Below, piece by piece: positions 39,385 through 53,678 of a stretch of 64,000 nt of DNA. The stretch's first letter is position 1. Every line of letters begins with the position of its first letter. Source of the stretch: Geoalkalibacter subterraneus. Lineage in GTDB: Bacteria; Desulfobacterota; Desulfuromonadia; Desulfuromonadales; Geoalkalibacteraceae. The DNA is taken from positions 806,001 through 870,000 of the forward strand of contig NZ_CP010311.1 in assembly GCF_000827125.1 (NCBI RefSeq), read 5' to 3'. A program made the translations under genes and the position numbers. The notes under the pieces are model-generated. The model was not told the DNA's origin. It searched no databases and was given only the letters and a program-made list of their open reading frames with translations.

Positions 39385-41308
39385 CAGGGCGAATTTGTTC
39401 CCTCCCGGGAACACGCTCTAAGCCTTGCCCCAGCATAAAGTTCTGGTCATTTGTTCTCCGATGGGGTATAAAGGGTTCGTCCTTTGCCCTTGGAGACCCT
39501 GTCGTGAATCTGAAAGAAATCCATGTACGACCCGTTTCAGCCCTCGAGGAGGACCGATATCGGGAGACAATGCAAGCGCATCATTATCTGGGAGATCTGC
39601 CCAAGATCGGCGAAACCCTCTGGTACGTTGCCATATTGCGCCAGCAGTGGGTCGCTTTGCTGAGCTTTTCCGCTGCGGCCTTGAAGTGCGCCGTTCGCGA
39701 CCAGTGGATTGGCTGGGATCATCGGCGCCAATATGACCGCTTGAAGCTGGTTGCCAACAATAGCCGTTTTCTGATCCTGCCGCAGTGGCATTTGCCCAAT
39801 CTGGGCTCGCGCGTCTTGGCGCTGTGCGAACAAAGAATCCAGCGCGACTGGCTGGAGCGCTTTGGCCATCCGCTTGTGCTGATGGAGACCTTTGTCGATC
39901 CGCAGCGCTATCAAGGCACGGTTTACAAGGCGGCCAATTGGCTATGCCTGGGTCAGACCAAGGGATTTCGCCGAACCCGTCAAGGTTATAGCAACCTCGC
40001 ACAGTCCCCGAAGATGGTGTTTGTTCGTGCGCTGCAGTCCAATGCCCAATCGCTCTTGTCCCGCCCCCTGCTTGGGGCGCCCTATTGTCCAGGAGACGTG
40101 AAAATGTTGTTGACAGCCGATCAAATGCGATCCTTGCCAGAGTTTTTCACCGACATCCCCGACCCGCGCCGCGCCGCAGGGAAACGCCACCGGCTGTCCA
40201 CCGTTTTGGCCATTGCCGCCGGGGCGACGCTTTGCGGGATGCGCGGGTACAAGGCGATTTCCGATTGGGCCAAAAGTCTTGGCCCCAAGGCGCGCGAGCG
40301 CTTCGGATGCCGTAAAAAACAAGGGCAGTACCTTGTCCCGAGCGAATACATCATCCGCGATATCCTCATCAGGGTCGATCCGGATCATCTCGACCGCAGC
40401 TTTCAACGTTGGAACGAGGCTTACGCAGGCGCGGATGAAAGCCTCGCCATCGACGGCAAGACCATGTGCAACGCCACCGACGAGCAAGGCCGCAAGACGC
40501 ATATCATGAGCGCGATCGGCCACGAGACCAAAACCTGCCACACCCAAAAAAAGTCGGCCTCCTGCCGATAGACGATGGCAGCGACGAGGTCAAGCAAACG
40601 AACGAAATCAAAATGGCCATCCCCTTGCTCGAGGCGATCAGCATCGAAGGCAAGACCATCAGCGCCGACGCCCTATTGACGCAACGCCGATTGGCCCGCT
40701 ACCTGGTCGAAGACAGGCAGGCCCATTACCATTTCACCGTCAAAGGCAATCAGCCCCGGCTCCTCGAAGACCTCACCCTGTATTTTCATGGCCGCCAAGA
40801 ACCTCACGCTGTCACCGTCGACTCCGACCATGGCCGAATCGAGACGCGGAGGATCTGGGTCACCGCCGAGCTCAACGACTATCTCGACTTTCCTCACGTC
40901 GGTCAGGCTTTCATGGTCGAACGCGAAAGGGTCAACAAAAAGAGCGGGAAAGTCTCAACCGAAACCGTTTACGGAATCACCAGCCACACACCGCAGCAGG
41001 CCGACGCCCAGCGCATCCTCAAGACTAATCGCAACCACTGGTGCATAGAAAACAGCTGCCACTACATCATTGACTGGAATTACGACGAAGACCGAAGCCG
41101 GATACGCACCGGCCATGGGCCGGAAAACATCACCCGGCTCCGACGCTTCGCGGTCGGTCTGATTAAATCAAAAAGCGTCGGCAGCGTTGCGCAGAAAATG
41201 AGGATGCTCGCCATGAACCCCCGCGCCGTCTTCGACTACCTGCGAATGACCGATAATACAAGAAGCAGGCGCTCGGCTGCTGGATGCAATTAGAACAAAT
41301 TTGCCTTG
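39385..41308 (+). mobile_element. ISAs1-family insertion sequence, 1924 bp
   Basis: Terminal inverted repeats CAGGGCGAATTTGTTC (left) and CAAGGCAAATTTGTTC (right, read inward) match at 14 of 16 positions, and the CAGGG-type end is characteristic of the family. The element is bounded by 10-base direct repeats and holds one transposase gene in two frames. The clean target duplication and intact target codons show a simple, probably recent insertion. Confidence 0.92.
39504..41293 (+). CDS. ISAs1-family transposase with N-terminal DUF4338 (DruA-like) domain, in two frames
   Basis: The first frame (39504-40571) encodes a DUF4338/DruA-like domain (HYLGDLPKIGETLWY, RDQWIGWD, RFLILPQWHLPNL, LMETFVDP, about residues 1-190), then the DDE domain start with DIPDPRRAAGKRHRL and the first Asp in AIDGKTM. 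The second frame (-1) continues from about 40553 with KVGLLPI, SADALLTQ (second Asp) and RNHWCIENSCHY (Glu). The frames meet at A AAA AAG (40547-40553), so the roughly 595-residue protein is made by -1 frameshifting, or the gene is broken by a one-base loss. The GTG start is tentative. Confidence 0.85.
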
Positions 41309-41759
41309 AGGTCAGATCTGCCGGCAGAACCGCCTCGATCATCATCACATACACCGGCCGTGATTCCTTGCCCACCAGCTTGGTGTGCAGGTCGGTGATG
41401 TTGACATTGCGGTCACCGAGGGTTTTGGCGACCTTGTAGACGATGCCGGGCTTGTCCGAGCCGTAGACCGAAATCATGCACAGCTCGCCATCGAAGTGAG
41501 GTGATTTTTCGCCGCCGGGTTTGAGGGTACGTAGAAAGACGGACAGATTGCCCTCTTCCAGGGGGGCGAACGCGTCACCGAAACTGTCACGGTCAGTGAA
41601 GTCGGGGTGGGCGATAATCAGAATCATGGCAAACTGCCCGCCGAGAATGGAGCAGCTTGAATCGGCGATGTTGCAGCCGAGACGGTAGAGTATTTCGGTG
41701 ACCTGAGACACAATGCCGGGGCGATCGCGGCCGATGATAGTCAGGGCGAAATGGGCCAT
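41309..41759 (-). pseudogene. 5' part of ACT-domain regulator gene (GcvR-like), disrupted by IS
   Basis: Encodes two ACT domains (from MAHFALTIIGRDRPGIVSQV and CMISVYGSDKPGIVYKV), the second cut near residue 150 at VLPADLT. The family (glycine cleavage repressor/ACT proteins) binds amino acids and modulates metabolism. Past the insertion, the frame runs into IS sequence and adds about 50 unrelated residues, so a truncated product might still be made. Rejoining with 39286-39384 restores a normal 179-residue protein that ended 6 bases before def. Confidence 0.88.
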
Positions 41760-43628: not shown

Positions 43629-44666
43629 ATGGAATTCTGGCAAAAGCGGCTGCGTGAGAGTGTCACGACAGCCGCGCAGCTGTCCCGGCATTTTGCAATT
43701 GATGTCGATGCCCTTGATCGCGTTGCCGCCCGCTATCCACTGGCAATCACCCCCCATTACCTGTCATTGATCGAGCATCCCGGCGATCCCATCTGGAAGC
43801 AGTGCGTTCCCGATCTTCGCGAGCTGGAGGACGGTGCGACCGATGCCGACCCCCTGCATGAAGAGCGCCTCGCCACTGCGCCGCAGGTGGTACACCGCTA
43901 CCCGGATCGTGCTTTGCTGCTGGTGGCGGGAAGCTGTGCCGCCTACTGCCGTTTCTGCACCCGCAAACGCCGGGTCGGGTGTGCAGAGGCGCGTGTCACG
44001 CTGGGTGAAGTGATGGAGGGGATCGAGTACATTGCCCGCACCCCGGCGATCAAGGATGTGGTGATTTCCGGCGGCGAGCCGCTGCTCATGTCCGATCTGC
44101 TGCTCAAGCAGATTTTCGAGCGGTTGGGGCGCATCCCTCATGTGGAGATTTTGCGTATCGGCACCCGCGCCCCGGTTGTTCTGCCCGAGCGGATTACCGA
44201 AAGCCTGTGTAATCTTCTGCGCCGCTGCCATCCGTTGTTTGTCAATACCCATTTCAACCATCCCCGCGAGTTGACCCCGGAGTCGCGCGAAGCCTGTCTG
44301 CGTCTGGCCGACGCGGGCATCCCGGTGGGCAACCAGACCGTGCTGCTGCGGGGCGTCAATGACGATGCCGCGACGCTGGAGGCCTTGTTTCGCGGCCTGC
44401 TGCGGATGCGCGTGAGGCCGTACTACCTGCACCACATGGACCTGGTGCGCGGCACCGACCATTTTCGGACCCCTTTGGAAACGGGCATCGAAATCATGGA
44501 CAGGCTGCGCGGCACCCTGTCCGGGCTGGCGATCCCCCAGTACGTGGTGGACCTTCCCGGTGGTCGCGGCAAAGTCCCCATTACTCCGCAATATGTGGAC
44601 AAGCTGGGTGCTCAGGCGGTGCTACGCGCGCCGGACGGCGAGCGGATCTCTTTCCCCAATCTATAA
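43629..44666 (+). CDS. epmB: EF-P lysine 2,3-aminomutase-type enzyme (EpmB)
   Basis: A radical SAM/PLP enzyme that converts L-lysine to (R)-beta-lysine for EF-P modification. It has 345 residues; the cluster motif is C-x3-C-x2-C (CAAYCRFC, Cys103/107/110), followed by SGGEPLL and, near the C-terminus, VVDLPGGRGK (PLP lysine region is more C-terminal in KamA). The short length and location facing epmA and efp favour EpmB over catabolic KamA. It overlaps the convergent epmA by 6 bases at their stops. Confidence 0.88.
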   Translation: MEFWQKRLRESVTTAAQLSRHFAIDVDALDRVAARYPLAITPHYLSLIEHPGDPIWKQCVPDLRELEDGATDADPLHEERLATAPQVVHRYPDRALLLVAGSCAAYCRFCTRKRRVGCAEARVTLGEVMEGIEYIARTPAIKDVVISGGEPLLMSDLLLKQIFERLGRIPHVEILRIGTRAPVVLPERITESLCNLLRRCHPLFVNTHFNHPRELTPESREACLRLADAGIPVGNQTVLLRGVNDDAATLEALFRGLLRMRVRPYYLHHMDLVRGTDHFRTPLETGIEIMDRLRGTLSGLAIPQYVVDLPGGRGKVPITPQYVDKLGAQAVLRAPDGERISFPNL

Positions 44667-45575
44667 ATCTTCCGGGGTGAAGGCGACGACCTCGTCGATT
44701 TCTGCAGCACCGGTCAGCAGCATGATAAGGCGGTCGACGCCCAGTGCGATCCCGGCCGCAGGCGGCATGTAAACCATTTCGTTGAGGAATTTTTCCGGTG
44801 AGGGGTAGGGGGGGTGACCGCTGCTGCGGCGCTGCTCATCTTCGCGGGCGAAACGGGCGCGCTGTTCTTCGACATCGGTGAGTTCCGAAAAGGCGTTGGC
44901 GATTTCCAGCCCTGCAATGTAGAGTTCAAAGCGCTCGGCGACCCGATGGTTGTCGGGCTTTTTTCGTGCCAGGGCTGCAAGTTCGGCAGGGTATTCAATA
45001 AGAAACACCGGTGTGTCGAACCCCAGCCGGGGTTCGATTTCGTCGCTGATGACTTCGTCGAAACGGTCGTCGCTCAGTGCCCGGTGGGGAGTCGTGTCCG
45101 TGTAGCGTTGGAAGGCTTCGGCCACGGTCAATCGCTCCCACGGCGGGGTGATGTCGATGGTGTGCCCCTGCCGGGTCAGGCTGCCGGAGGGGACGAGGCC
45201 GGTGAGCAGCTGTTCGCATTCCGTCATTAATGCCGTGTAGTCCACTTGGGCGCGGTACCATTCCAGCAGGGTGAATTCGGGCAGGTGGCGGCGGCCGCGC
45301 TCCGCCGAGCGCCAGCAGCGGCAGATCTGAAACAGGCGTTCATATCCGGCGGCCAGCAGGCGTTTCATGGCCAGTTCGGGGGAGGTGTGCAGAAACCAGT
45401 TGCCGCTGGTTTCCGGTTCGATATAGGCTTCGGGGGCATTGCCCGGCACGCGGTGAGGGGTTTCCACCTCCAGGTAGCCGTGATCGATGAAAAAAGCCCG
45501 GATCATCTGCATGATCCGGGCCCTTTCGATCAGTTTGGCGCGCTTGCCGGCAAGTCGCCAGTTGGGCTCCGCCAT
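44661..45575 (-). CDS. epmA: EF-P--(R)-beta-lysine ligase (EpmA/PoxA/GenX)
   Basis: A truncated lysyl-tRNA synthetase-like enzyme of 304 residues without the anticodon-binding domain; it attaches beta-lysine to a lysine of EF-P. Class II synthetase motifs are present: motif 2 in FQICRCWRSAERG then HLPEFTLLEWYR, and motif 3 GIALGVDRLIML near the end. It ends 6 bases inside convergent epmB and is preceded, on the same strand, by efp after only 7 bases, so substrate and ligase are co-expressed. Confidence 0.95.
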   Translation of the reverse strand: MAEPNWRLAGKRAKLIERARIMQMIRAFFIDHGYLEVETPHRVPGNAPEAYIEPETSGNWFLHTSPELAMKRLLAAGYERLFQICRCWRSAERGRRHLPEFTLLEWYRAQVDYTALMTECEQLLTGLVPSGSLTRQGHTIDITPPWERLTVAEAFQRYTDTTPHRALSDDRFDEVISDEIEPRLGFDTPVFLIEYPAELAALARKKPDNHRVAERFELYIAGLEIANAFSELTDVEEQRARFAREDEQRRSSGHPPYPSPEKFLNEMVYMPPAAGIALGVDRLIMLLTGAAEIDEVVAFTPEDL

Positions 45576-45582
45576 CGGCCGG

Positions 45583-46146
45583 TTATTCCTTGACCCGGGT
45601 GTTGTAAGCGCCGGTGCGGGTGTCGATCTGAATCAGGTCGCCCTCTTCGACAAAGCTCGGCACCTGCAGGCTGTAGCCGGTCTCCACGGTGGCCGGTTTG
45701 TTGTTGCCGGCGGCGGTGTCGCCCTTGACCCAGGGATCGGTCTGGGTGACCTTGAGGTTGACGAAGTTGGGCAGGGTGATTCCGATGGCCCGGTCGCCGA
45801 ACATGAGAACCTTCACGTCCATGTTGTCGATCAGAAAGTACTTGTCGTCGCCCAGGGTTTCCTCGGTGAGCGTGACCTGCTCGAAGGTCTTCTGATCCAT
45901 GAAGACGTAGCCGGTTTCGTCCTGGTAGAGGTACTGCATGTCGCGGTCTTCCAGGCTGGCCGGCTCAAAGGATTCGCCCGAACGGTAGGTGCGATCGAAC
46001 AACGATCCGGTGATCATGTTGCGCAGCTTGCATTTATAAAGGGCCTGGCCTTTGCCGGGTTTGGTGAAATCGAAGGCGACAATGACGTGCGGTTCGCCGT
46101 CGACCATGAGTTTGAGGCCCTTTTTGAGATCGGAACAACTGTACAT
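45583..46146 (-). CDS. efp: translation elongation factor P
   Basis: Relieves ribosome stalling at polyproline. The 187 residues show the three beta-barrel domains; the modification loop reads KPGKGQA with Lys32 as the probable beta-lysylation site, and the C-terminal domain has PATVETGYSLQVP and VEEGDLIQIDTRTG. I start at the ATG at 46146, preceded by AGGAG; 22 upstream in-frame residues have no counterpart in EF-P. Adjacent epmA and epmB complete the modification pathway. Confidence 0.97.
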   Translation of the reverse strand: MYSCSDLKKGLKLMVDGEPHVIVAFDFTKPGKGQALYKCKLRNMITGSLFDRTYRSGESFEPASLEDRDMQYLYQDETGYVFMDQKTFEQVTLTEETLGDDKYFLIDNMDVKVLMFGDRAIGITLPNFVNLKVTQTDPWVKGDTAAGNNKPATVETGYSLQVPSFVEEGDLIQIDTRTGAYNTRVKE

Positions 46147-46417
46147 GGGGAAGTTCTCCTTGCTATGGTTTTCAATTCGTGAATCCGGGAAGTTGTGTTG
46201 GGAACCACGCATTTAAACACATAAAGGTGAGTTTTTCCAATGGAAATTTGATTGAAGAGTCGCCCTGGTCCATGCTTCGGTGAGAAGCGGCGGCATGCGA
46301 CAATTGCCTTGAGGGGGCGCCCTGTGCTAATTTTTCGCGGTTATTTTCAGGTTTTCGGTCTCACTGGGCTGTCCCCGGGGGCTGAGCCGTTATTACAATT
46401 CAAGGAGATTTCTGAAT

Positions 46418-46590
46418 ATGATTCTCGCCAACGATCTCAAGCGTGGCATGGTCATCCAGCTTGACCAGGCGCCCTGCCTGGTGCTCGACGTCAGCTTCCA
46501 GTCGCCCTCCGCGCGCGGCGGCAGCACGCTGGTCAAAACCAAATACCGCAACCTGCTGACCGGGCAGGTGCTGGAAAAGCCTTTCAAGGC
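46418..46590 (+). pseudogene. truncated EF-P paralogue (YeiP/EfpL-like), N-terminal domain only
   Basis: The first 56 residues (ILANDLKRGMVIQLDQAP, SFQSPSARGGSTL, TKYRNLLTGQVLEKPFK) match the N-terminal KOW-like domain of EF-P-like YeiP/EfpL, with the tip SARGG in place of the modified lysine loop. After KPFKA the match stops: the next bases, GGCCGTCCTTTCAGGGCGGC, look like the stem of a terminator and the frame runs on for about 45 unrelated residues. The rest of the gene (about 130 residues) has been deleted. AAGGAG precedes the ATG, so a fragment could be translated. Confidence 0.8.
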
Positions 46591-46647
46591 CGTCCTTTCA
46601 GGGCGGCTTTGCTGTTTTAAAATGAAATTCTCAGAATCAATTTTTCA

Positions 46648-46696
46648 TTCGCACAATTGCGAAAAAGCCCTTTTTGCCTGTTTGCAATCTTGCAAA
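46648..46696 (+). promoter_or_regulatory. two tandem palindromes, probable enhancer-binding-protein sites
   Basis: TTCGCACAATTGCGAA (46648-46663) and TTTGCAATCTTGCAAA (46681-46696) share the pattern TTYGCA-N4-TGCRAA with centres 33 bases apart, about three helical turns. The same arrangement occurs upstream of the acetate transporter at 53631-53678. They lie about 240 bases before a sigma-54 promoter, a normal distance for activators of that polymerase. Confidence 0.65.
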
Positions 46697-46930
46697 ACCT
46701 TGTTTGAAAAGCCCGCTTGGAGGTAGAACCCCTGAAAAACAGGGCTTTTCAGTTATTTCCAGGCAGGGGTGAGTTTTTCCCCTTTCTTTGTTCACCTCCC
46801 GTATCCCGGCCGGCTTATTTGCAGTTGTGCGAATCCACCCGCCTTCCTCGCCAAAGCCATCCCTTTTTCTGCCCGTATACAAGTCGTTGAAAATAAACAA
46901 GTAAAACTCTTTTTTTTAAAAATCGACACG

Positions 46931-46947
46931 TTGGTATGCACGTTGCT
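46931..46947 (+). promoter_or_regulatory. sigma-54 promoter of the OFA transporter gene
   Basis: TTGGTATGCACGTTGCT has GG (46933-46934) and GC (46945-46946) twelve bases apart, with TGG at -24 and TTGC at -12. Transcription would start near 46958, leaving a leader of about 250 bases. The 620-base interval after the EF-P remnant otherwise holds a hairpin CTGAAAA/TTTTCAG (about 46732-46752) and no gene. Confidence 0.7.
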
Positions 46948-47209
46948 CATAATTAAAGTCAAGCGCGGATACCCCCGCCCCTTTTCAACAACGGAGAGAC
47001 GGATGAAACAGCAGGGCGAAAACATTTTGCATAAAGCTGACACGGCTGCACCGTCTCCCGATCAGATCGTCGCGGCAGGCAGCCATAGCCGTCGGGCGGC
47101 GCGCCCGGTGGTCAAGCCCTTCAAGGGCAAGTGGCCGCTGGCCTTCCAGGTTCGTTATGTGACAAGTCATTGTTCGCTCAACCCCACATTGTCTAAGGAG
47201 GACAACACC

Positions 47210-48550
47210 ATGAACGCAAATCAGACTTCCAACGCACGCGGATGGACCGTCGTTCTGGCGGGTACCGGTATCAACCTGGCCCTCGGTATTCTCTATACCT
47301 GGAGTATTTTCAAGGGTGCAATCTCCGAATCGATCCAGGCTGGAGGCGCCGGAGCCTTTAACTGGAACATGGCGTCGATCAACGACCCCTACGCCGTCTG
47401 CTGCCTGATGTTCGCGTTTTCGATGATCATCGCCGGCAAGCTTCAGGATGCTCTCGGTCCCCGCATCACCGCAATTATCGGCGGCCTGATGGTCGGTATC
47501 GGCTTCGTGCTGGTTTCCCAGTCCACCAATTACTGGGCATGGATCCTCGGTTTTGGTGTCTTGGCCGGCATGGGAATCGGTTTCGGCTACTCCGCTGCGA
47601 CGCCTCCGGCGCTCAAGTGGTTCCCTCCCGCTAAAACAGGTCTGATTGCAGGTATCGTAGTTTCCGGCTTCGGTCTGGCTTCGGTTTATATCGCTCCCCT
47701 GGCCAACTATATGCTCACTGTTGCCGGCCTGCAGAAATCCATGATGATTTTCGGCATTGCCTTTGCCATCGTGGTTTCGTTGCTGGCTCTGCTGCTCAGC
47801 AATCCTCCTGCCGGTTATGTTGCCGGTGGCGCGCCCAAGCCCGGTGCAGCTCAAAAAGCTGCTGATTCTCCTGAACTGAGCCCCAAGCAGATGCTCTCCA
47901 GCGGCAAGTTCTACACCCTGTGGCTGGCCTATTTCATCGGCGCCGGCGCCGGTCTGATGGTTATCGGCAGCGCCAAGGGTATGGCTGCTGCCAGCCTCGG
48001 TGAGATGGCATTTCTGGTTGTCGCCATCATGGCAGTGGGCAACGCCGCTGGTCGCCTGGTGGCCGGTGTGGTTTCTGACAAGATCGGCCGCGCCAACACC
48101 CTGATCATCATGCTGGTGTTCCAGGCCTCCCTGATGTTTGCAGCCATCCCGGTGCTCGGCGGACAGGGCAATCCCGTACTGGTGACCCTGCTGGTGACCT
48201 TCCTGGTGTTCAACTACGGCACCAACCTGGCCCTGTTCCCTGCCTTCACCAAGGATTTCTTCGGCATGAAGAACTTTGGGATGAACTACGGCATTCTCTT
48301 CTCTGCCTGGGGTATCGGCGCCTTTGTCCTGGTCCGCGTTGCCGAAATGCTTAAAGTGCAGACCGGCGGCTACACCGCTTCCTTCGCCGCAGCCGGCATC
48401 ATGCTGCTGGTCGGAGCCATGATGAGCCTGTCCCTGCGCACCAAGAAGGTTGCTGCAGAAGCTCATGTCACCGTCGGTGCGGAAAGCTCCGCGATCATGG
48501 AAGAAGAGTTCGAAGAGCAGGAACTGGCCACTCAGAAAACCAACCGCTGA
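47210..48550 (+). CDS. MFS transporter, OFA (oxalate/formate antiporter) family
   Basis: A 446-residue inner-membrane transporter with about twelve helices. The first helix GWTVVLAGTGINLALGILYTWS and the GFGLASVYIAPLANYML segment are typical of the OFA family; substrates in related anaerobes are monocarboxylates such as formate, acetate or lactate, and this one is unassigned. AAGGAGG at 47195-47201 supports the ATG at 47210. An in-frame ATG at 47003 with GGAGAG nearby would add 69 polar residues and cannot be excluded. Shared regulation with the acetate transporter suggests carboxylate uptake. Confidence 0.9.
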   Translation: MNANQTSNARGWTVVLAGTGINLALGILYTWSIFKGAISESIQAGGAGAFNWNMASINDPYAVCCLMFAFSMIIAGKLQDALGPRITAIIGGLMVGIGFVLVSQSTNYWAWILGFGVLAGMGIGFGYSAATPPALKWFPPAKTGLIAGIVVSGFGLASVYIAPLANYMLTVAGLQKSMMIFGIAFAIVVSLLALLLSNPPAGYVAGGAPKPGAAQKAADSPELSPKQMLSSGKFYTLWLAYFIGAGAGLMVIGSAKGMAAASLGEMAFLVVAIMAVGNAAGRLVAGVVSDKIGRANTLIIMLVFQASLMFAAIPVLGGQGNPVLVTLLVTFLVFNYGTNLALFPAFTKDFFGMKNFGMNYGILFSAWGIGAFVLVRVAEMLKVQTGGYTASFAAAGIMLLVGAMMSLSLRTKKVAAEAHVTVGAESSAIMEEEFEEQELATQKTNR

Positions 48551-48584: not shown

Positions 48585-48612
48585 GGCCCCGCTTCGGCGG
48601 GGCCATTTTTTT
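48585..48612 (+). terminator. rho-independent terminator after the OFA transporter
   Basis: GGCCCCGC-TTCG-GCGGGGCC is a perfect eight-pair stem with a stable tetraloop, followed by a run of seven T's. Confidence 0.95.
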
Positions 48613-52718: not shown

Positions 52719-53321
52719 TCAACGCGCGGCCTGGTAATGTTGAGCCGACTTCTCCCGCGCGTACTTCCGAATCAAAGCCAGGCCGCGGAACACGCTCAAG
52801 GCACCGCAGGCCAGGCCGGCTGCGCAGGTCAGCTGCGACAGTTGCGGGTGCGGCCAGGCCAGGTTGGCTGCGGTCAAAACTATCAGCAGAGAGGTCGCCA
52901 TGAAAATAATGCCGGTAAGTTTGTGGCTGGAGAAGCTGCCGTAGCCGAGGATCAGGCAGAACATGCCCCACATGAGGAGATAGGGGGCCGATGCGCTGAT
53001 TTCCGGAACTTTTCCGAGGCCGGCCTGAGGAAGGATGAGAACCGGAAGAAGAGACAGCCACATCAGGCCGCAGGAAGTTAGAGAAACCGCCCCGAAGGCA
53101 TTGCCGCGCCGCCATTCATTGAGGCCTGTCAGGGCCTGGCAGCTGCCGCCGTAAAGGAATACGGCTGAAACAAGATACGGAAAATCCATCCATCCGGCCT
53201 GTTGAAGGCCGAGCAGAACGGCGCACATGCCCAGAGTCAGAAAACCTGAGGGGCTTTGAGGTACAGTCAGGCGATCCAGTCCGGAAATATGAGTTTTTTG
53301 CGTTTGTGTTTGAGTCATCAT
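52719..53321 (-). CDS. acetate/succinate transporter, GPR1/FUN34/YaaH (SatP) family
   Basis: A 200-residue membrane protein with six helices. Family marks are NPSG-like SPSGFLTLGMCAVLLGL at the N-terminus and NEWRRGNAFGAVSLTSCGLMWLS in the centre (EWRRGNTFGxxAFxSYGxFW in YaaH). Members take up acetate with protons. GAGGAG lies 8 bases before the ATG at 53321, favoured over the GTG three codons earlier. It has a sigma-54 promoter, an unusual leader hairpin and paired upstream palindromes shared with the OFA transporter gene. Confidence 0.88.
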   Translation of the reverse strand: MMTQTQTQKTHISGLDRLTVPQSPSGFLTLGMCAVLLGLQQAGWMDFPYLVSAVFLYGGSCQALTGLNEWRRGNAFGAVSLTSCGLMWLSLLPVLILPQAGLGKVPEISASAPYLLMWGMFCLILGYGSFSSHKLTGIIFMATSLLIVLTAANLAWPHPQLSQLTCAAGLACGALSVFRGLALIRKYAREKSAQHYQAAR

Positions 53322-53451: not shown

Positions 53452-53630
53452 AGTTGATTTTATTTTTTCAAAACGATAAAGGTGCGAAGTTTCAGTGGGT
53501 TGTAAATGGGGGGGAGGCGTTTTGAGATTGCCGGTTGATAGGATGGCCTTTCGCAGCGTTGCGAAACACAGAGACCTGGAGACCTGACTGAGAACAGCAA
53601 TCCCCTTAAAATAGTCGATTTGCAGCCTTT

Positions 53631-53678
53631 TTTGCCGATTTGCAAAAAGATTGAGGAGCCGTTTTGCATTTTTGCGAC
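53631..53678 (-). promoter_or_regulatory. two tandem palindromes upstream of the acetate transporter
   Basis: TTTGCCGATTTGCAAA (53631-53646) and TTTGCATTTTTGCGAC (53663-53678) follow the same TTYGCA-N4-TGCRAA pattern as the sites before the OFA gene, with centres 32 bases apart, and lie about 190 bases upstream of the sigma-54 promoter. The 53322-53739 interval has no gene; weak ORFs there lack coding character. Confidence 0.6.

Follow-up and report, generated by a model that had tools for sequence, protein, structure and literature searches.

In this study, we provide evidence that palindromic sites of the form TTYGCA-N4-TGCRAA in Geoalkalibacter subterraneus very probably bind a small and apparently undescribed switch that activates lactate/acetate uptake across a large group of anaerobes. 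Judging from sequence comparison, these palindromes are in all likelihood upstream activating sequences for an NtrC-family regulator encoded at C1:398538-399911, the partner of a dCache_2-HAMP-HisKA kinase. The window is the whole stretch of 64,000 nucleotides that was analysed (contig NZ_CP010311.1, positions 806,001 to 870,000).

Palindromes and promoters in the window

The first-pass annotation had assigned GG-N10-GC promoters to an OFA-family gene and to a YaaH-type acetate transporter (AceTr) gene, and exact elements were located at both (Table 1), among the top scores for GG-N10-GC sites in the 64-kb window. It had also described two palindromes at each promoter, 33 and 32 bp apart and at a common 190-240 bases upstream. 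The spacings were reproduced, but both members of the AceTr distal pair (TTTGCATTTTTGCGAC, TTTGCCGATTTGCAAA) carry one mismatch to TTYGCA-N4-TGCRAA, and each promoter has three palindromes, the exact proximal third having been overlooked at both. The common distance did not hold either: the distal pairs lie at 235-268 bp (OFA) versus 180-212 bp (AceTr), and therefore the proximal palindrome, not the distal pair, is the fixed promoter element. The position of the OFA proximal palindrome is kept in relatives. No Rfam match to a structured RNA was found in the window.

Table 1. Features at the regulon promoters, the regulator locus and associated genes (window positions unless a contig or locus is given).
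Feature	Position	Strand	Remarks
Sigma-54 -24/-12 promoter of OFA gene	46932-46947	+	TGGTATGCACGTTGCT, exact GG-N10-GC
OFA distal palindrome 1	46648-46663	+	TTCGCACAATTGCGAA, exact
OFA distal palindrome 2	46681-46696	+	TTTGCAATCTTGCAAA, exact; 33 bp from palindrome 1
OFA proximal palindrome	46818-46833	+	TTTGCAGTTGTGCGAA, exact; ends 98 bp before TGG (-24 element)
IHF-like site, OFA promoter	46880-46892	+	CAAGTCGTTGAAA, YAA-N4-YTGWAW; 52 bp before TGG
OFA-family MFS transporter, long form	47003-48550	+	515 codons; SfMCT L-lactate transporter equivalog
Internal Shine-Dalgarno AAGGAGG	47195-47201	+	in frame, before ATG 47210 (MFS core start)
Terminator-like hairpin	48585-48604	+	3' of OFA gene
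Sigma-54 -24/-12 promoter of AceTr gene	53450-53435	-	TGGTACACGTCTTGCT, exact GG-N10-GC
AceTr distal palindrome 1	53663-53678	-	one mismatch; GTCGCAAAAATGCAAA on - strand
AceTr distal palindrome 2	53631-53646	-	one mismatch; 32 bp from palindrome 1
AceTr proximal palindrome	53550-53565	-	TTCGCAACGCTGCGAA, exact; ends 99 bp before TGG (-24 element)
IHF-like site, AceTr promoter	53490-53502	-	CAACCCACTGAAA; 52 bp before TGG
AceTr (GPR1/FUN34/YaaH) acetate uptake transporter	52719-53321	-	200 aa, without Cys-module
Sites of second AceTr gene	C1:399938, 399970, 400100		two exact, third with one mismatch; 32 bp within the pair, 130 bp from there to the single site
Sites of alpha/beta hydrolase gene	C1:1955321, 1955443		one exact and one-mismatch partner, upstream of gene
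NtrC-type response regulator	C1:398538-399911 (L016:4539-5912; gene to 5915)		receiver, Sigma54_activat (GAFTGA), Fis-type HTH (HTH_8)
dCache histidine kinase	L016:2555-4531		dCache_2, HAMP, HisKA, HATPase
Membrane protein of about 350 aa, copies	L083:7532-8578, L078:7496-8563, L084:7129-8343, L087:6475-7638, L093:7948-9033

A four-promoter set in the genome

With at most one mismatch, the motif occurs 6 times in the window, whereas dinucleotide shuffles average 0.73 and 0 of 100 reached 6. In the whole genome (3.72 Mb), exact matches occupy 7 places versus 0 for the reversed control, and matches with at most one mismatch number 33 versus 13. All 7 exact sites fall at four sigma-54 promoters, those of the window OFA gene, the window AceTr gene, a second AceTr gene and an alpha/beta hydrolase gene; the genome scan, which had been suggested as a check, thus favours the original observation, and the earlier judgement that the pattern was unlikely to arise by chance is borne out by these counts. 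The sites of the second AceTr gene sit between that gene and the gene of the NtrC-type response regulator, with a good GG-N10-GC promoter (TGGAATGCCTCTTGCT, L016:6203) 86 bp below the proximal site, and another one (TGGTACAGCTATTGCT, L017:6551) lies 91 bp below the site of the alpha/beta hydrolase gene.

Isolated one-mismatch sites elsewhere were rejected as extra targets: a promoter-like site within 40-180 bp accompanies only 2 of 20, about one being expected by chance at the 5.7% rate of control windows, and both distances (126 and 173 bp) lie beyond those seen for conserved sites. Also excluded from the regulon was a pair beside clpB (C1:3013716/3013745), whose members each carry one mismatch; it has no recognised sigma-54 site, and its second member resembles a terminator stem.

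A candidate regulator and its distribution

For the enhancer-binding protein (EBP) that had been proposed, the strongest candidate is the NtrC-type regulator encoded beside the second AceTr gene. It has the make-up of an NtrC-family two-component regulator (receiver, Sigma54_activat with GAFTGA, Fis HTH and an adjacent histidine kinase); the kinase gene stops 7 bp before the regulator gene, and about 25 bp separate the end of the regulator gene from the palindromes in front of the second AceTr gene. The HTH is conserved (A..N..T.YRK.K.Y). AtoSC are the nearest NCBIfam families, the regulator matching AtoC at 461.6 bits (cutoff 714) and the kinase core AtoS at 256.9 bits (cutoff 646); both scores lie far below the equivalog cutoffs, which rules out an assignment as AtoSC, and the sensor domain here is dCache_2. 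This sensor matches chemoreceptor (MCP) Cache domains of solved structure (2qhk, 4exo, 4k08, 5g4y), several of which were reportedly solved with small carboxylates bound.

Best-match identities to the regulator have a bimodal distribution over 58 relatives, with 63-100% in 42 genomes and at most 48% in 16. At least two exact palindromes were present in 41 of the 42 genomes with an ortholog versus 2 of the 16 without, the mean per genome being 4.6 versus 0.94 (Fisher 1.7e-10, Mann-Whitney 1.7e-7; the sample of the order consists mostly of ortholog-bearing genomes, and, the 58 genomes being related, these values and those for phasing overstate independence, so that P values are indicative). The reversed-control motif averaged about 0.3 in both groups, and G042 has neither ortholog nor palindromes while two congeners have both. 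A control EBP of the same genome does not follow the palindromes, its close ortholog being absent from about 12 genomes that have palindromes, while most genomes without palindromes possess it. In a fragmented MAG (G056), 8 palindromes and the Cys-module described below were found, and no regulator ortholog. Outside the order, an ortholog (57-69% identity) is present in each of the 15 genomes examined that carry the module, compared with 1 of 15 controls (G065), which has palindromes beside that gene.

The kinase gene lies upstream of the regulator gene in Geobacter sp. OR-1, Geobacter sp. H2geo and Desulfuromonadales MAGs as well, and in many relatives palindromes lie just past the 3' end of the regulator gene. 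In several of these they start 10-60 bp beyond its stop and lead on to a sigma-54 promoter with a gene for AceTr, OFA or a small protein; at several ortholog-bearing loci, including those of Oryzomonas and Trichlorobacter, the stretch examined around the regulator gene showed no palindrome. Palindrome regions in further genomes have OFA (59-72% identity), AceTr and alpha/beta hydrolase genes as targets, the last two occurring together at one region among relatives. Given their shared presence and absence across the phylum, the regulator, the sites and the Cys-module behave as a single inherited unit. Together with the four promoters found here, the tracking of palindromes by regulator orthologs supports the first-pass proposal that one EBP may govern a small regulon for monocarboxylate uptake.

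Helical phasing of sites and promoters

A correctly oriented sigma-54 site (score of at least 17) follows 73 of the 88 palindrome clusters with enough flank at a distance of 40-180 bp, versus 5.7% of control windows, and pair spacings across clusters are mostly 29-33 bp. Spacings between palindrome and promoter are quantised by about 11 bp: distances from the proximal palindrome to TGG peak at 74-79, 84-89, 95-100 and 107-111 bp, and 0 of 5000 smoothed nulls were as strongly periodic, loci being counted as independent.

The E. coli IHF consensus had no exact match in 29 spacers and was dropped as such, although with one mismatch it occurred in 10 of 29 spacers versus 4 in shuffles. A looser IHF-like motif, YAA-N4-YTGWAW, was therefore adopted, and it is exact in 19 of 44 spacers versus 0.5 in shuffles, a comparison in AT-rich DNA for a motif derived from 29 of those same 44 spacers; in 16 spacers added after the motif had been defined, 7 were exact. 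By its sequence and place in the spacer, this motif is putatively an IHF site. It stands around 33-36, 43-47 or 55 bp from the palindrome and 40-43 or 51-54 bp from TGG, both halves shifting by about one turn (~11 bp) largely independently, and the window promoters are typical (98/46/52 bp for OFA, 99/47/52 bp for AceTr). The sites of the putative activator are in helical phase with sigma-54 promoters, the intervening bend site is IHF-like, and about 80 spacers show a strict helical register of enhancer, bend and promoter.

Target transporters and the five-cysteine module

The window OFA protein reaches 406.3 bits with the SfMCT model NCBIfam NF049980 (cutoff 320) and matches a solved L-lactate transporter (PDB 6g9x), and the two AceTr genes reach 109.5 and 199.4 bits with NCBIfam NF038013, AceTr_1 (cutoff 50). 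From such family matches, the substrate of the regulon would be lactate/acetate. The OFA gene is likely a single-gene transcript because of the terminator-like hairpin behind it. A Shine-Dalgarno-like sequence precedes an in-frame internal ATG in 8 of 9 distinct OFA genes examined (the ninth, L164, gave no clear reading), and this in-frame AAGGAGG-like sequence before an internal Met points to a probable second start of translation in OFA genes, by which a short transporter would be made besides the long form.

Two features of the neighbourhood were noted by eye. Just upstream of the OFA distal palindromes, 46418-46610 resembles a truncated elongation factor P-like gene reduced to its N-terminal portion, and an apparently intact efp (45583-46212, minus strand) adjoins apparent EF-P modification genes (43629-45575). 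At 39504-41293, a transposase-like ORF extends over two overlapping frames and is probably what is left of an insertion element; an ACT-domain-type protein gene (41163-41759, minus strand) seems to be truncated by it. An EF-P-like gene (MYTCSDLKKGLKLM...) in the relative G044 is preceded, at about 450 bp, by a sigma-54 promoter that has a palindrome at 98 bp spacing (TGGCATATCCCCTGCA; L165:2612-2155, minus strand).

While SfMCT and AceTr/SatP-YaaH are known families whose cutoffs are exceeded here, relatives add to both an N-terminal module of about 50 residues with five Cys, of consensus CP[FY][FY]xxxEDxCDVGCGYISxxDVxxIIxYCx6Cx(K)YxELAxRFP. This module is common to most target transporters, in two unrelated folds (OFA/MFS and AceTr), and in Geobacter-type genomes it forms a separate protein of about 63 aa encoded by the first gene of the operon. 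In our genome the second AceTr (AceTr1) carries it (L016:6303-6470 = C1:400302-400469) and the window AceTr (AceTr2) does not, while the window OFA, read from ATG 47003, keeps the linker PVVKPFKGKWPLAFQVRY... that follows the module in relatives, the module itself being gone; it is decayed in the OFA genes of sister genomes. It is present in all 42 regulator-bearing genomes among the 58 relatives and in G056, in 0 of the 15 others, and in 18 of 297 genomes across the phylum. No match was found in Pfam, NCBIfam or PDB sequences, and an AlphaFold model from five sequences was of low confidence (pLDDT 51). In Geobacter-type operons the separate Cys protein (for example L083:6819-7007) is followed by a membrane protein of about 350 aa, which sometimes also stands ahead of OFA; two copies scanned had no Pfam match.

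The Cys-module is probably cytosolic and may regulate transport in a metal- or redox-dependent way. We raise it as a tentative possibility that it is a new regulatory domain through which one signal (metal, Fe-S/thiol redox or partner contact) sets the activity of carboxylate transporters; if true, transcriptional and post-translational control would be combined within one regulon.

Discussion

We propose that the dCache domain of the kinase would sense an external small monocarboxylate, putatively lactate, acetate or a relative, upon which the regulator would be phosphorylated. Its dimers would then occupy the proximal palindrome and the two distal ones, which are spaced by 29-33 bp (about three turns), and the AAA+ domains of the bound regulator would assemble. 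With the DNA bent by an IHF-type protein at the IHF-like site halfway to the promoter, the assembly would remodel and activate RpoN polymerase at the -24/-12 element, presumably as positive regulation, and the regulon products would import lactate/acetate; the targets here would be a lactate-type MFS (OFA), two AceTr acetate transporters and the alpha/beta hydrolase.

That the palindromes arose by chance or as dispersed repeats or terminators is hardly credible, and for the four promoter loci such an origin is already refuted. The clpB-side pair, with its terminator-like second member and no sigma-54 site, would fit it; on the other hand, the reversed control gave 0 exact sites, shuffles of the window never reached 6 matches, and the positions are conserved over the phylum while the N4 and flanks are not conserved across relatives, unlike those of a repeat. 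It is also improbable that another EBP, or a dimeric regulator outside the EBP class such as a repressor, binds the palindromes and that the two-component system merely adjoins them. Palindromic sites of 16 bp are common to many regulator families and EBPs are abundant, with at least 28 candidate EBP matches in this genome, but it is the ortholog of the candidate regulator that tracks the palindromes in the 58 genomes and beyond, which the control EBP does not, and the sites stand at enhancer distance, phased to sigma-54 promoters rather than over the promoter as for a repressor.

A less remote, though still rather unlikely, alternative is that sites and regulator are rightly paired and the signal is not a monocarboxylate but, for example, the state of the envelope, energy or redox, with the transporters as part of the response. 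The alpha/beta hydrolase, a conserved target without obvious link, would agree with this, as would the Cys-module, which suggests redox or metal input, and the membrane protein of about 350 aa after the small Cys protein in Geobacter-type operons. Against it, lactate-type MFS and AceTr acetate transporters recur as the core targets, and the dCache_2 sensor domain is related to MCP Cache domains. Thus, we favour monocarboxylate sensing by the NtrC-family regulator and its kinase.

The known system closest in logic is LurSR, whose regulator LurR (DVU3023) controls the lactate regulon of Desulfovibrio vulgaris; both systems are two-component, with a sigma-54-dependent EBP controlling lactate permeases and conservation over an order (PMC6456213, PMC3333781). 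The layout is similar too, LurR having three 16-bp sites above a sigma-54 promoter, two about 39 bp apart and one about 100 bp further down. However, LurR sites are GTCCGCTTTTCAAGAC-like (GTC...GAC type) in place of TTYGCA-N4-TGCRAA, LurR targets are the lactate oxidation operon (por) and permeases, which differ from those found here, and no Cys-module is mentioned in the text consulted (PMC6456213, PMC3333781). As it differs in the defining motif and in the target operon, the regulon was not classed as LurSR. CrbSR is likewise a two-component control of acetate use, but compared by kinase architecture, CrbS has its own SLC5 transporter and STAC domain, unlike the kinase here (PMC5715377).

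In a 2015 survey of sigma-54 in D. vulgaris, sigma-54 control of lactate/pyruvate genes is given as not described outside Desulfovibrio (PMC4641369), and the G. sulfurreducens RpoN study, in the passages searched, assigns the OFA gene GSU2490 to RpoD and contains no such regulon (PMC2725144). Term look-ups in parts of papers on G. sulfurreducens RpoN, G. metallireducens, P. carbinolicus, D. vulgaris and Desulfobacteraceae gave no mention of the site or regulon, and no published description of the site, the regulon or the Cys-module was found in the literature searched, subscription papers and RegPrecise lying outside the search.

For the control of lactate/acetate uptake in Geobacter-/Desulfuromonas-type anaerobes, the putative regulon would supply a regulator with its DNA site, the layout of the promoters and a list of targets; in these organisms, the uptake of electron donors matters for metal reduction and bioelectrochemistry. 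In addition, the Cys-module, common to two unrelated transporter folds, comes with a clear genetic handle.
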